Positions 4,961 to 9,463 of a DNA stretch of 64,000 nt are shown here, in pieces. The stretch is from Catenulispora sp. EB89 (GTDB taxonomy: Bacteria; Actinomycetota; Actinomycetes; Streptomycetales; Catenulisporaceae). Location: assembly GCF_041261445.1 (NCBI RefSeq), contig NZ_JBGCCU010000008.1, forward strand, positions 310,001 to 374,000. Reading direction: 5' to 3'. The translations under genes were made by a program, and so were the position numbers. The notes beneath the pieces were generated by a model that was given only the letters and a program-made list of their open reading frames with translations, made no database searches and had not been told where the DNA came from. Position 1 is the stretch's first letter; every line of letters begins with the position of its first letter.

Positions 4961-5204
4961 GGCCGGTTCTCGGCCGGCATCCATCAGCGGAGTTGAGCTT
5001 GTCGACGTAGTGACCGTTCGCCGTAGGGCCTGCCCAGCTTGAGTGTCCTGACCTGGACGCGTGCACGACGGCGCGGATGATCAGGTCCGTAGCAGGGCAC
5101 GCAATGTGGCGGCCGAAGCTGCCACCTCGGGTGACAAATGGTCTGCCCATCCAGACCATTGGGCCGATGAGCGCGCGACAGCCCGGGCCGACGCACGGAG
5201 CCCG

Positions 5205-6341
5205 ATGACGAGCTCGCACTCCGTCCTGTCCGCCGCGATCACGTCCGGGCCGCAGGGCCAGCTCCAGATGCGCAGCGTTCTCTACGCTGCCGGCTTCGCC
5301 CTGGCGTTGTCGCTGTTCGGCACGCCGGTGGCCATCAAGGTACTGACCCGGCTCGGGATCGGGCAGCAGGTCCGCACCGACGGAGTGCAGGCGCACCTGG
5401 CCAAGCGCGGACGGCCGACGATGGGCGGGCTCGTCATCGTGCTGGCGACGCTGCTCGCCTACGGCTTCACACACGCGGTCGCCTGGCGCTCGCCGACCGC
5501 CTCGGGCCTGCTGGTGCTGGCGCTGATGACCGGGATGGCGGTCGTCGGCGGCGTGGACGATCTGCTGAAGGTGTTCCGCGGCCGGTCCCTGGGGCTGCGC
5601 GCGCGGGCCAAGCTGGTCGGGCAGTGGATCGGCGCGGTCGTGTTCGCGGTGCTGGCGCTGCACTTCCCCGACGCGCACGGCTACCGTCCGGCCTCGGCGC
5701 ACATCTCGATCGTCCGCGACACCGCGCTGACCATCGGGCCGGTGCTGTTCGTGCTCTGGGTCGGTGTGCTGATCGCCGGGGCGTCCAACGGCGTGAACCT
5801 TGCCGACGGTGCCGACGGGCTGTGCGCCGGGGCGTGCACGATCGTGTTCGCCGCGTACGTGTTCATCGGGGTCTGGCAGCACGGCGAGGCGTGCGGGAAC
5901 CGGTGGCCGGCCGGCGCCCCGGCTGGCTGCTACCCGGTGCGCGACCCGCTGGACCTGGCCGTGATCGCCGCGGCGATCGCCGGGGCCTGCTTCGGGTTCC
6001 TGTGGTGGAACACCTTCCCGACGAAGATCTTCATGGGGGACGTCGGTTCGCTGGCCCTCGGCGGGGCGCTCGCCGGGTTGGCGATCTGCACGCGCACCGA
6101 GCTGCTGCTGGTGCTGCTCGGCGGGCTGTTCGTGATGGAGACGGTGTCGGTGATGCTGCAGGTGGGGTACTTCAAGCGCACCGGCGGCAAGCGGCTGTTC
6201 AAGATGTCCCCGATCCACCACCACTTCGAGCTGCTGGGCTGGTCGGAGTCGCAGGTGGTGGTGCGGTTCTGGATCCTGTGCGGGGTGTTCGTCGTGGCGG
6301 GGATCGCCGTGTTCTACGCCGGATGGACGACGGTGCGCTAG
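5205..6341 (+). CDS. mraY: Orphan MraY: phospho-N-acetylmuramoyl-pentapeptide transferase
   Basis: Integral membrane enzyme that moves phospho-MurNAc-pentapeptide from UDP onto undecaprenyl phosphate to make lipid I. All catalytic signatures are present: RGRPTMGGL, the paired aspartates in GGVDDLLKV, NLADGADGL (usually NLTDGLDGL), the aspartate of KIFMGDVGSL, and SPIHHHFELLGW. About ten hydrophobic segments. Start 5205 has GGAG four bases upstream; ATG 5268 would give 357 aa and matches the usual MraY N-terminus, so it is a real alternative. No murF, murD, ftsW or murG is beside it, so it is outside a dcw cluster. It converges on the beta-lactamase gene with 8 bp between stops. Confidence 0.9.
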   Translation: MTSSHSVLSAAITSGPQGQLQMRSVLYAAGFALALSLFGTPVAIKVLTRLGIGQQVRTDGVQAHLAKRGRPTMGGLVIVLATLLAYGFTHAVAWRSPTASGLLVLALMTGMAVVGGVDDLLKVFRGRSLGLRARAKLVGQWIGAVVFAVLALHFPDAHGYRPASAHISIVRDTALTIGPVLFVLWVGVLIAGASNGVNLADGADGLCAGACTIVFAAYVFIGVWQHGEACGNRWPAGAPAGCYPVRDPLDLAVIAAAIAGACFGFLWWNTFPTKIFMGDVGSLALGGALAGLAICTRTELLLVLLGGLFVMETVSVMLQVGYFKRTGGKRLFKMSPIHHHFELLGWSESQVVVRFWILCGVFVVAGIAVFYAGWTTVR

Positions 6342-6349
6342 GAATCAGC

Positions 6350-7315
6350 TCAGCCGAGCCGCTGCAAGGCGATCTTCGTAGCGTCGGCGATGAGGCCGTC
6401 GGCGGAGTTCGCGTCCTTGCCGTCGCGGTGGGAGAGCACTGCGATCACGATCGGCGCGGCGCCCTGCGGCGGCCATACGACGGCGATGTCGTTGCGTGTG
6501 CCGTAGTCGCCGCTGCCGGTCTTGTCGGCGACCTTCCAGCCGGCGGGTACTCCGGCGCGGATGTACTGGCCGCCGGTGGTGTTCGCGGTGAGCCATGATG
6601 TCAGCATCGTGCGGCGTTGCGGTGTCAGCGCGGCGCCGAGGACGTAGGTGCGCAGGTCCTCGGCCAGCGCGCGTGGGGAGCTCGTGTCGCGTGCGTCGCC
6701 GGGCAGTGCGGTGTTGACCGTTGGCTCGTCGCGGTCGGTGTTGGTCGTCGTGTCGTTCATGCCGCGCAGCGCCGCCTGCATCGTCGCGGGGCCGCTGAGC
6801 TGCTTGAGCATCAGGTTCAGCGCGGTGTTGTCGCTGACCTCGATCGCCGCGGTCATCACCGCGGTGAGGCTCATGCCGTCCTTGACGTGCTGCGACGTGA
6901 CGGGGGAGTAGTCGACCAGGTCGGCGGCGGTGTAGGTGACGGTCTGGTTGAGCTGCGCGTCCGTCTCGCGGCGGAGCAGCTCACCGGCCACCAGGGCCTT
7001 GATCGTTGAACAGAACGCGAACCGCTGGTCGGCCTGGAACGCGACGGAGTGCCCGGATCCGGTGTCCAGGGCGTAGATCCCGAGCTGTGCGTGGTAGCGC
7101 GATTCTAGCTGGGTGAACGCTGCCGGGTCGCCGGTGTTATCGGCTGGGGGTGTAGTAGTCGCTGAATTGGAAGTAGTTGCAGGCGAGGCCGGCGAGGTGG
7201 ACGCCGCAGACGCGCATCCCGTCAGCGACGCGCCGACCAGGCCGAGCGAGGCCGCGACCGCAGCGACCCGCGCGACTCCCGCGGCCCCCGCGACCGTCGG
7301 GATCCTGCGAACCAC
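6350..7315 (-). CDS. Class A beta-lactamase, predicted lipoprotein
   Basis: Serine beta-lactamase that hydrolyses penicillins outside the membrane. Motifs with residue numbers from GTG 7315: nucleophile STIK at ~103, SDN at ~160, the general-base region EPTVN with Glu ~197, and KTGSG at ~265. The N-terminus VVRRIP is followed by a hydrophobic stretch ending in the lipobox LTGC, then a Ser/Thr/Ala-rich linker. Start GTG 7315 has AGGAG six bases upstream; ATG 7339 is in frame but lacks an SD. It is divergent from a LysR regulator, the same arrangement as blaL/blaA in Streptomyces cacaoi, which suggests it is inducible. Confidence 0.93.
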   Translation of the reverse strand: MVRRIPTVAGAAGVARVAAVAASLGLVGASLTGCASAASTSPASPATTSNSATTTPPADNTGDPAAFTQLESRYHAQLGIYALDTGSGHSVAFQADQRFAFCSTIKALVAGELLRRETDAQLNQTVTYTAADLVDYSPVTSQHVKDGMSLTAVMTAAIEVSDNTALNLMLKQLSGPATMQAALRGMNDTTTNTDRDEPTVNTALPGDARDTSSPRALAEDLRTYVLGAALTPQRRTMLTSWLTANTTGGQYIRAGVPAGWKVADKTGSGDYGTRNDIAVVWPPQGAAPIVIAVLSHRDGKDANSADGLIADATKIALQRLG

Positions 7316-7346
7316 GGACTGCTCCTGGAATCTCCTCATGATCAGT

Positions 7347-7375
7347 AGCCTGGCCGCGCCGATCCATCCGGTCAA
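7347..7375 (-). promoter_or_regulatory. Candidate promoter of the beta-lactamase gene
   Basis: Minus-strand -35 TTGACC at 7370-7375 and -10 CAGGCT at 7347-7352 with a 17-bp spacer. This places transcription start near 7340, giving a leader of ~25 nt before GTG 7315. Confidence 0.55.
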
Positions 7376-7395
7376 AGACCCTCCCGGGCGATTCC

Positions 7396-7410
7396 ATGCA
7401 GATTCGGCAT
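7396..7410. promoter_or_regulatory. LysR-type box between beta-lactamase and its regulator
   Basis: ATGC-N7-GCAT (ATGC at 7396-7399, GCAT at 7407-7410) contains the T-N11-A core of LysR binding sites. It lies ~20 bp upstream of the beta-lactamase -35 and overlaps TACGAT (7410-7415), a possible -10 for the regulator eight bases before its GTG. The position suits activation of bla and autorepression. Confidence 0.5.
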
Positions 7411-7423
7411 ACGATCTGACCCC

Positions 7424-8350
7424 GTGGACCTCGTCAGCGCCTGCCGCATCTTCACCAGCGTCGCCGAACGCGGCAGCTTCACGCTGGGCGCCGCCGCCGA
7501 GGGCATCCCGCAGTCGGTGGCCAGCCGCCGCGTGGCGGCGCTCGAGAAGCATTTCCGCCAGCCGCTGTTCGACCGCACGGCGCGCCGGGCCGTCCTCACG
7601 GTCTTCGGCCAGGACATGCTCGGGCCCGCCAAGCGGCTGGTGCAGTACGCCGAGACGCTCGAATTCCACGCTGCGGAGGCCAAGCTGCGGCCGCTGACCC
7701 TGGCCGTGCCCGAGACGTGCGACGTCCGGCGCCTGGCGGTGCTCGACGCGGCGGCGCGGGAAGCCGAGCTGGCTCTGGACATCCGCAGCGCGGGCCCGGA
7801 GGCGCGAGCGGCGTGGATGCGGGACAAGGCAGTGCGCGCCGCAGTGCAGGCGGTGCCTCCGGATGACGCGCTGTGGGTCGTCCCGCTCGGGCTGGCCTCG
7901 GCACCGCAGACCGGTCCGCGTGAAGCGACTCAGGGTTCGTCGTCCCCGCGCCGCCGCCCGATCCGGCTCGAAACGCTGCGGCCTTCGCGTACGGAGCCAG
8001 CTCTGCGCCGCGTCTGGATCCAACCCGAGGACGACGTCCCCCACGTCCGCGACGTGCTGCAACGCGCCGGACACCGCGCGGCGCTGCTGCCCGCGCAGAT
8101 ATCCGTCGCCGCGTCGCTGGTCACGGCGGTCGGCGCGGCCCTGCGCACCGGCGCCTTCGTCCTCGCCTCCGCCGACCAGGCGCGCGAGCTCGGCCTGGCC
8201 TGGCGGCCGATCGCCGAGGCCGCCTCGCTGGCGCGCGGCTACACCGTGGCCGCGCACGTCGGTGACGACGCGGCCCTCATCCGCACGCTTGTCGGCGTCG
8301 AACTCGCCCGCGCGCTGGGTGCCGACGAATCAGGGGACGTCGATGCGTGA
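7424..8350 (+). CDS. LysR-family regulator, BlaA/AmpR-like
   Basis: N-terminal LysR winged helix-turn-helix (VSACRIFTSVAERGSFTLGAAAEGIPQSVASRRVAALEKH, about residues 4-42) followed by a ~230-aa effector domain that is weakly conserved. It is transcribed divergently from the class A beta-lactamase and overlaps the next gene by 8 bp. In Streptomyces cacaoi the same position is held by blaA, a LysR-type activator needed for induction of beta-lactamase blaL. GTG 7424 has no SD and may be leaderless. No ligand can be read from the sequence. Function by synteny is likely but not proven. Confidence 0.82.
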   Translation: MDLVSACRIFTSVAERGSFTLGAAAEGIPQSVASRRVAALEKHFRQPLFDRTARRAVLTVFGQDMLGPAKRLVQYAETLEFHAAEAKLRPLTLAVPETCDVRRLAVLDAAAREAELALDIRSAGPEARAAWMRDKAVRAAVQAVPPDDALWVVPLGLASAPQTGPREATQGSSSPRRRPIRLETLRPSRTEPALRRVWIQPEDDVPHVRDVLQRAGHRAALLPAQISVAASLVTAVGAALRTGAFVLASADQARELGLAWRPIAEAASLARGYTVAAHVGDDAALIRTLVGVELARALGADESGDVDA

Positions 8351-9236
8351 CAGAGAACTGATGGCCGGACTGCGCGACCGGCTCGCCGAAGCCGGTCTGC
8401 TGGGCTCCTTCCTCGTGCGCAATCTGGGGACAGGACAGGAGATCGGGCTCGACCCGGACGTCGCCTATCCCATCGCCTCACTCGTCAAGGTGCCGCTCGC
8501 CATCGCGGTCCTGGAAGCGATCCGGGCAGGGCGGCTCGACGGCGCGCAAGCCCTCGAACTCACCCCCGAACCCGACAAGCCGCAGCCGCCGATCGGCATC
8601 GGCCGCTTCCGTCACCCCGCACGCGTCGCGATCGACGACCTGATCTACCTCGCGGTCGCCATCAGCGACAACGCCGCGGCTGACGCGCTGTTCGACCTGG
8701 TGCCGCCGAGTGACGTCGACCGCGTCCTCGCGGATGCCGGCGTCACGGGCATCGCCGTACGGCATCCGATGCGCGACATCCTCGACGTCTTCGGCCAGCC
8801 CGAGGAGCTGCACCTCGCGCATGCCCTGGCCATCGGCGCTCGTACGCCTGGCGGCGGCCACCCTGTCGCGCACCTCGATGTCTCGCGTGCCAACGTCGGC
8901 ACCGCGCGTGCGTTCGCCGATCTGCTGCAACGATTGTGGACGCCGTCCGCGATCCATCCTGACGTGGCCGCGCGAGCCAGGGCCCTGATGGGCGACGGGA
9001 TGCTGCAACGCCGCCTCGGCCCCGACTTCATCTCCGACGCGACCGCCTGGGCCTCCAAGTCCGGCACGCTGCTCAACCTGCGCCACGACGCGGGCGTCGT
9101 CGAACACGAAGACGGCGAGAGCTACGCGGTGGTCGCCCTGACCGAGTCGACCGTGCCGGCCGCGGCCCAGCCCGCCGTGGACGCGCTGATCGGCCGCGTG
9201 GCCCGCGCGCTGCACGACCAGCTCCGCGAGCACTGA
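8343..9236 (+). CDS. BlaB-like cytoplasmic penicillin-recognising protein (class A beta-lactamase fold)
   Basis: A 297-aa protein of the serine beta-lactamase/PBP fold with SLVK at ~46, SDN at ~108 and KSG at ~239. There is no signal peptide or lipobox. I do not find an ExxxN element with the class A general-base Glu between SDN and KSG, and the third motif is KSG, not KTG. This matches what is known of Streptomyces cacaoi BlaB, a non-secreted regulator required with BlaA for blaL induction. The gene overlaps lysR by 8 bp (ATG 8343, preceded by AGGGGA at 8332-8337), so the two proteins are made together. It is more likely a sensor or signalling protein than a working lactamase. Confidence 0.82.
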   Translation: MRDRELMAGLRDRLAEAGLLGSFLVRNLGTGQEIGLDPDVAYPIASLVKVPLAIAVLEAIRAGRLDGAQALELTPEPDKPQPPIGIGRFRHPARVAIDDLIYLAVAISDNAAADALFDLVPPSDVDRVLADAGVTGIAVRHPMRDILDVFGQPEELHLAHALAIGARTPGGGHPVAHLDVSRANVGTARAFADLLQRLWTPSAIHPDVAARARALMGDGMLQRRLGPDFISDATAWASKSGTLLNLRHDAGVVEHEDGESYAVVALTESTVPAAAQPAVDALIGRVARALHDQLREH

Positions 9237-9463
9237 CGTCGAGCACTGGCCTTGCGCACTGGCCTTGCGCGCCGACCGCGTGCACTGGCCTTGCGCGCCG
9301 GCCTCGCGCACCGGCCTTACGCACTGACCTCGCGCACTGACCTCGTGTACCGGCCTTGCATACTGACGTCGCGCGCCGACCGCGTGCACTGACCTCGCGC
9401 GCCGACCGCGAGCACCGACCGCCAGCACCGGCCGTGCGCACTGACCTCGCGCTCTGAACCACC
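9230..9463. repeat. 13-bp minisatellite, 18 degenerate units
   Basis: Unbroken array of 13-bp units with consensus close to GCACTGACCTCGC. Units start at 9230, 9243, 9256, 9269 and so on to 9451. Main variants are GCACTGGCCTTGC, GCGCCGACCGCGT and GCACTGACCTCGC, each recurring. The first unit contains the TGA stop of the blaB-like gene. The period is not a multiple of three. It fills most of the gap before the next gene. Confidence 0.93.

Follow-up and report, generated by a model that had tools for sequence, protein, structure and literature searches.

The closest described relative of the locus considered here is the beta-lactamase locus of Streptomyces cacaoi, in which, according to a passage of PMC3610667 that cites Raskin 2003, the enzyme BlaL is under the control of a LysR activator and of BlaB, a penicillin-binding protein (PBP). 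The same three genes are found in the same order at positions 6350-9236 of a 64,000-nt stretch of Catenulispora sp. EB89 (contig NZ_JBGCCU010000008.1, positions 310,001-374,000; hereafter the window), and because of that correspondence we regard it as likely that bla is switched on here by beta-lactams through a predicted intracellular sensor of the penicillin-binding type. The locus is thus well supported as a further, and largely ordinary, case of the S. cacaoi-type circuit. That circuit has long been known; no account of its reach was found in the literature searched, outside of which subscription papers mostly fell. The matter is relevant to when soil actinomycetes deploy their resistance to beta-lactams.

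Two better known systems offer partial likenesses. AmpR-AmpC also has a LysR regulator divergent from a beta-lactamase with a box between them, but the window has a class A enzyme and an extra BlaB gene, and the host genome has no match to AmpG (TIGR00901) at E <= 0.001, with an E. coli control positive. The initial annotation had predicted induction without an AmpG/AmpD-style pathway; the missing match agrees with the AmpG half of that statement, the half that this search covers. In the BlaR1/BlaI and MecR1/MecI systems of staphylococci a penicillin-binding sensor likewise controls bla or a MecA_N-type PBP, whereas the sensor in the window is predicted to be soluble and cytoplasmic, with a LysR regulator in place of the BlaI repressor. 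No BlaI-type gene lies beside bla, and the 5 found in the host genome are all on other contigs.

The three-gene locus and its relatives

The gene bla (6350-7339, minus strand) encodes a lipoprotein class A beta-lactamase of BlaL type, with a lipobox LTGC and the motifs STIK, SDN, RDEPTVN, and KTG. The product matches Pfam Beta-lactamase2 at 7.1e-39 and scores 295.6 bits to the NCBIfam class A equivalog, for which the cut-off is 200 bits, bearing out what had been proposed for it. By sequence reading its start is uncertain between the ATG at 7339 and a GTG at 7315 behind AGGAG. The lipobox pattern is present in 40 of 47 bla proteins from the fetched loci.

Divergent from bla, the gene lysR (7424-8350, plus strand, GTG start, 308 amino acids) encodes a BlaA-type LysR regulator. 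Pfam matches HTH_1 alone, but we rejected the missing PF03466 as the mark of an odd LysR, as the structural model, with a mean predicted local distance difference test (pLDDT) score of 90, matches full-length LysR-type structures. Many residues of the helix-turn-helix (HTH) are kept across 62 aligned sequences, in which Cys7 and Cys99 are also invariant. The blaB-type gene (8343-9236, plus strand), encoding a predicted cytoplasmic penicillin-binding-type protein with a class A fold, shares 8 nt (ATGCGTGA) with lysR; its SxxK, SDN, and KSG positions read SLVK, SDN, and KSG. All 3 reading frames are intact, and the genes, divergent order, overlap, and motifs are as the initial annotation gave them.

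A route to the S. cacaoi locus through the NCBIfam BlaL model NF033101 was abandoned, with the window bla at 248 bits falling below the curated 650-bit cut-off and none of 391 genomes of the order reaching it, S. cacaoi itself being outside that scored set; the sequence of PDB 2WUQ located the locus instead. S. cacaoi NBRC 12748 has homologs of all 3 genes, ordered and oriented alike, and blaA and blaB appear to overlap there too. Homology runs along BlaA (51% identity over 301 columns) and BlaB (53%), so the proposed correspondence of set and order holds, and the mature part of BlaL is 47.7% identical over 264 columns. From a start chosen by eye, S. cacaoi BlaL is likely 325 amino acids long, with a lipobox-like signal LVAC; its BlaB has SxxK and KxG and, by sequence pattern, no Glu166-type motif. 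The 2 loci differ in that BlaB has SDG and KTG there and SDN and KSG in the window. They also differ in that a second enzyme, BlaU, is said in a paper title to be under the same system in S. cacaoi, whereas the host genome has one BlaL-type match at E <= 1e-60.

When 147 genomes of the order were searched with BlaB, 97 places in 76 genomes were listed. Of these, 32, each in a different genome and the window among them, are at 54% identity or more; we call them tier 1, and with 32 among 147 genomes the module in its tier-1 form is present in only part of the order. In all 30 loci that were fetched of these 32 lysR adjoins blaB and a bla is divergent from the pair, the thirtieth (L029/G109) having been seen through a wider region. 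The bla search added 12 tier-1 loci, in which bla is present by construction, for a total of 42, and lysR and blaB overlap or are separated by 2 nt or less in 40 of these. A second set of 30 loci from named genomes, partly repeating the first, has a bla match in 27. The other 3 are L157, which is cut by a contig end, L155, and L152 (Streptomyces sp. SBT349), in which a PBP-type gene (1-541), also cut by a contig end, is directly divergent from a tier-1 lysR-blaB pair with an exact box. A PBP match is found behind bla in 5 tier-1 loci (L047, L147, L148, L161, and L163). Genera with the locus include Nocardiopsis, Amycolatopsis, Saccharothrix, Herbidospora, and Nocardia.

The box between the divergent genes

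The proposed LysR-type box is ATGCAGATTCGGCAT at 7396-7410, a site assigned to neither strand, of the form ATGC-N7-GCAT (T-N11-A). It is centered 64 nt 5' of the bla ATG and stands 19 nt from a -35-like element TTTGAC (7371-7376, minus strand) that is kept across loci, and 18 nt from that element there is by sequence reading a possible -10, CAGGCT (7347-7352, minus strand). A single exact box in the host genome is weak by itself, since the longer form CATGC-N7-GCATA has 5 sites in 11.9 Mb and a reversed control has 4; predicting a genome-wide regulon from the box alone was useless at these counts. It is because the box is conserved in place across loci that we take it as real. An exact ATGC-N7-GCAT lies within 200 bp 5' of lysR in 39 of 42 tier-1 loci (27 of the 30 selected by BlaB and all 12 selected by bla), as against 2 occurrences in 489 kb elsewhere in the same loci.

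Spacing adds to this. We pooled 60 exact boxes from two overlapping locus sets, comprising 54 distinct sequences of which many are close kin and not independent, and 59 have a -35-like hexamer on the bla strand at exactly 19 nt. The hexamers at that distance are TTGGAC (48), which is the element in most Streptomyces loci, TTTGAC (9), and TTGGAT, TTCGAC, and TTGGTG (1 each, the last in L157). The distance from box to lysR ranges from 9 to 148 nt, and since the 19-nt spacing is fixed while that distance varies, selection seems to tie the box to the bla promoter. Among the 30 named loci 21 have the exact box; in 8 more, S. cacaoi included, 6-7 of the 8 arm bases are kept at the same -35 spacing, and the remaining one, L155, lacks a bla match, an exact box, and a -35-like element alike. 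As a rule LysR proteins bind near -65, and the box, by its placement, is a candidate BlaA operator, made precise by the locus comparison through its 19-nt phasing to the -35-like element.

The BlaB-type protein as a predicted sensor

In the first 36 residues of the BlaB-type protein there is no strongly hydrophobic segment, the best 19-residue mean being 0.81, and the hydropathy peak of 1.69 begins at residue 44, in the helix after SxxK. The claim that it has no signal peptide thus agrees with the hydropathy of those 36 residues. The protein matches Pfam Beta-lactamase2, scores 70 to the NCBIfam class A model with its cut-off of 200, and is homologous along its length to PDB 2WUQ (E = 1.6e-95), the closest solved structure and the top match both by sequence and by Foldseek; together with the 53% identity to S. 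cacaoi BlaB, this supports the proposed identity as BlaB. The model has a class A fold with a mean pLDDT of 78, dropping under 50 at residues 149-182, where the omega loop is expected.

SxxK, SD, and KxG are kept in all 42 tier-1 BlaB proteins, with the third SDN residue being G in 26, N in 9, S in 6, and Q in 1. Because profile alignment could not place Glu166 reliably within the omega loop, a motif count was used: 42 of the 47 bla proteins from fetched loci have the Glu166-type motif (ExxLN-like, after SDN), which is found by this pattern test in 0 of 42 tier-1 BlaB and 0 of 24 tier-3 BlaB-like proteins, the latter count leaving out one over-long row (L091). Keeping the 3 motifs without the fourth fits the expectation for a penicillin-binding sensor, a protein that can likely be acylated but not quickly released. 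Fold neighbors after 2WUQ begin with LRA-5 and include PBP-A, which by their entry titles (an engineered V166E mutant for LRA-5; an L158E mutant and a penicillin G acyl-enzyme for PBP-A) are class A folds without the native Glu.

We think it probable, then, that the window holds a BlaL-BlaA-BlaB-type locus in which LysR at the box activates bla once BlaB has been acylated by a beta-lactam. In this scheme LysR would bind the conserved box centered 64 bp 5' of the bla start, and the predicted cytoplasmic BlaB would be acylated at Ser46, with loss of the deacylating Glu making the acyl-BlaB long-lived. Acyl-BlaB, perhaps by direct contact, would change BlaA, which would then recruit RNA polymerase and activate bla; BlaA may also control itself, because the box lies just 5' of lysR.

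Several points weigh against this scheme. A scan for the sigma-70 consensus finds no promoter at bla. A hydropathy mean above 1.6 occurs within the first 60 residues of 7 of 42 tier-1 BlaB proteins. PER and TEM-1, ordinary active class A enzymes, come next in the fold list with scores only slightly weaker, so that fold cannot separate sensor from enzyme. The exact box is absent from 3 of 42 tier-1 and 9 of 30 named loci, and in S. cacaoi, where the circuit was described, it has 7 of 8 arm bases against the perfect box of the window, with TTCGAC for TTGGAC, although the spacing is still 19 nt. Finally, of the 6 bla-only loci 5 are without a box, but L134 (G121, near 6220) has bla, an intact box, and a -35-like element with neither lysR nor blaB matched across the region fetched, nor any BlaB match in its genome at E <= 1e-10; perhaps it has recently lost both regulators. 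L136, of the same genus, speaks for the scheme: bla is 78% identical and the -35-like element is retained there, with no box and no lysR or blaB in the 14-kb region. In L129 the site corresponding to the box matches 5 of 8.

A possible but unlikely alternative keeps the locus and changes the ligand, such that BlaB senses a cytoplasmic cell-wall fragment, either a D-Ala-D-Ala-type peptide or a muropeptide, and induction would signal damage to the wall, as in the AmpR system. The site of beta-lactam action is outside the membrane, and these drugs may reach the cytoplasm poorly, which favors such a fragment and counts against acylation by the drug. LysR-free BlaB relatives near enolase-superfamily, amidohydrolase, and decarboxylase-type genes could belong to peptide or D-amino-acid catabolism, which also leans this way. 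Set against it are the missing AmpG match in the host genome and the title of Raskin 2003, by which S. cacaoi BlaB reportedly is a penicillin-binding protein.

That the BlaB-type protein is no sensor but one more serine hydrolase or beta-lactamase, residing in the cytoplasm, seems to us improbable. The universal SxxK, SD, and KxG, the Pfam family, and the active class A enzymes among its fold neighbors would suit an enzyme, but the Glu166-type motif is in none of the 42, the class A score of 70 is far below 200, the lysR-blaB overlap or gap of 2 nt or less recurs in 40 of 42 loci, and LysR-linked forms stand apart from LysR-free forms in the tree (support 98/86). Slightly less credible again is that the regulators are relics, with bla constitutive and lysR-blaB without a role here, since although 6 of the 20 regions from the bla search carry bla without lysR or blaB, the 3 frames, the BlaB active-site residues (in 42 loci), many LysR HTH residues (in 62 sequences), and the window box with its spacing are all kept.

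Sister modules beside penicillin-binding protein genes

The host genome has a second pair on another contig (L039:5040-8693), in which lysR (6859-7809) and a blaB-like gene (about 7803-8693), the latter 33% identical to that of the window, are divergent from a gene (5040-6770) for a PBP that carries MecA_N and transpeptidase domains. Below tier 1 we fetched 43 of the 54 places under 40% identity and 3 of the 11 at 40-43%. Where lysR stands beside blaB, bla is found in 3 of 3 tier-2 loci, a divergent PBP in 23 of 25 loci of tier 3, the main paralog group, with bla behind the PBP in 5, and PBP and/or bla in 6 of 8 tier-4 loci. The PBP is more than 1 kb from lysR in 3 tier-3 loci (L070, L075, and L089). 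PBP and bla were recognized by tblastn, with a Pfam domain check on 3 PBPs only, giving MecA_N plus transpeptidase in L039 and L067 and transpeptidase alone in L047. None of the tier 2-4 loci with lysR has an exact tier-1 box within 200 bp 5' of lysR, yet GTCCAA, GTCAAA, or GTCGAA is found 5' of lysR in 35 of 36, and on both counts their regulators probably read other boxes.

In a tree of 88 BlaB-like rows and 4 enzymes, whose long branches make the deep forks unsure, 76 of 77 LysR-linked rows (L098 being outside) form one group with support 98/86. It splits into a bla group of 45 rows (100/100) and a mainly PBP group of 31 rows, for which support of 94/81 is just below the tree tool's mark for firm support. 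Exceptions are L047 in the bla group, with a PBP behind bla, and L092 and L101 in the PBP group, with bla only. That the LysR-linked proteins form one supported group points to LysR/BlaB pairs as sensor modules with swappable targets, the swapping being read from the BlaB tree and from L152. Whether they amount to a general modular actinobacterial sensor of beta-lactams or wall damage, in which a LysR activator and a cytoplasmic class-A-fold receptor deficient in deacylation were joined once and rewired to bla, a MecA_N-type PBP, or both, we hold to be evenly balanced. If so, actinobacteria would have in it their own equivalent of the bla/mec circuits of staphylococci, assembled from unrelated components, and the host genome would run two sensor copies with different DNA boxes. 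With two modules in one soil organism, the question of what BlaB senses becomes testable.

Among the papers searched by passage, PMC3610667 alone gives a description of the S. cacaoi circuit. The passages of PMC6273383, PMC9146315, PMC4757070, and PMC10235803 that were available contain no description of LysR/BlaB pairs beside PBPs. We take such pairs beside PBP genes to be new here, on evidence that is weak because those papers were seen in passages and subscription papers were mostly outside the search.

No lysR was found in 10 fetched loci. In 5 of these LysR-free cases (L040, L086, L090, L094, and L097) the blaB-like gene comes directly after an enolase-superfamily gene, called by Pfam (MR_MLE) in L040 and by eye from like sequences in the other 4; some of the 5 have nearby a gene resembling PucR (judged by eye) or, in L097, a beta-lactamase-family gene that Pfam assigns to PF00144. 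The enolase-linked loci are a possible cluster for wall-peptide catabolism. The 10 also include L041 (6454-10153) of the host genome, where a remote BlaB-like gene follows an amidohydrolase gene and a pyridoxal phosphate (PLP) decarboxylase-type gene, surroundings possibly concerned with D-amino-acid metabolism.

Beside the window locus, an mraY gene (5061-6341), one of 3 in the genome above the family cut-off, is convergent with bla and ends 8 bp from the bla end. It was dropped as part of the mechanism because no mraY match occurs in the regions of 17 relatives examined; the tier-3 regions L065 and L068 have an mraY-like gene at 28-29%. Directly 3' of blaB, at 9237-9460, there are degenerate short repeats resembling GCACTGGCCTTGCGC.

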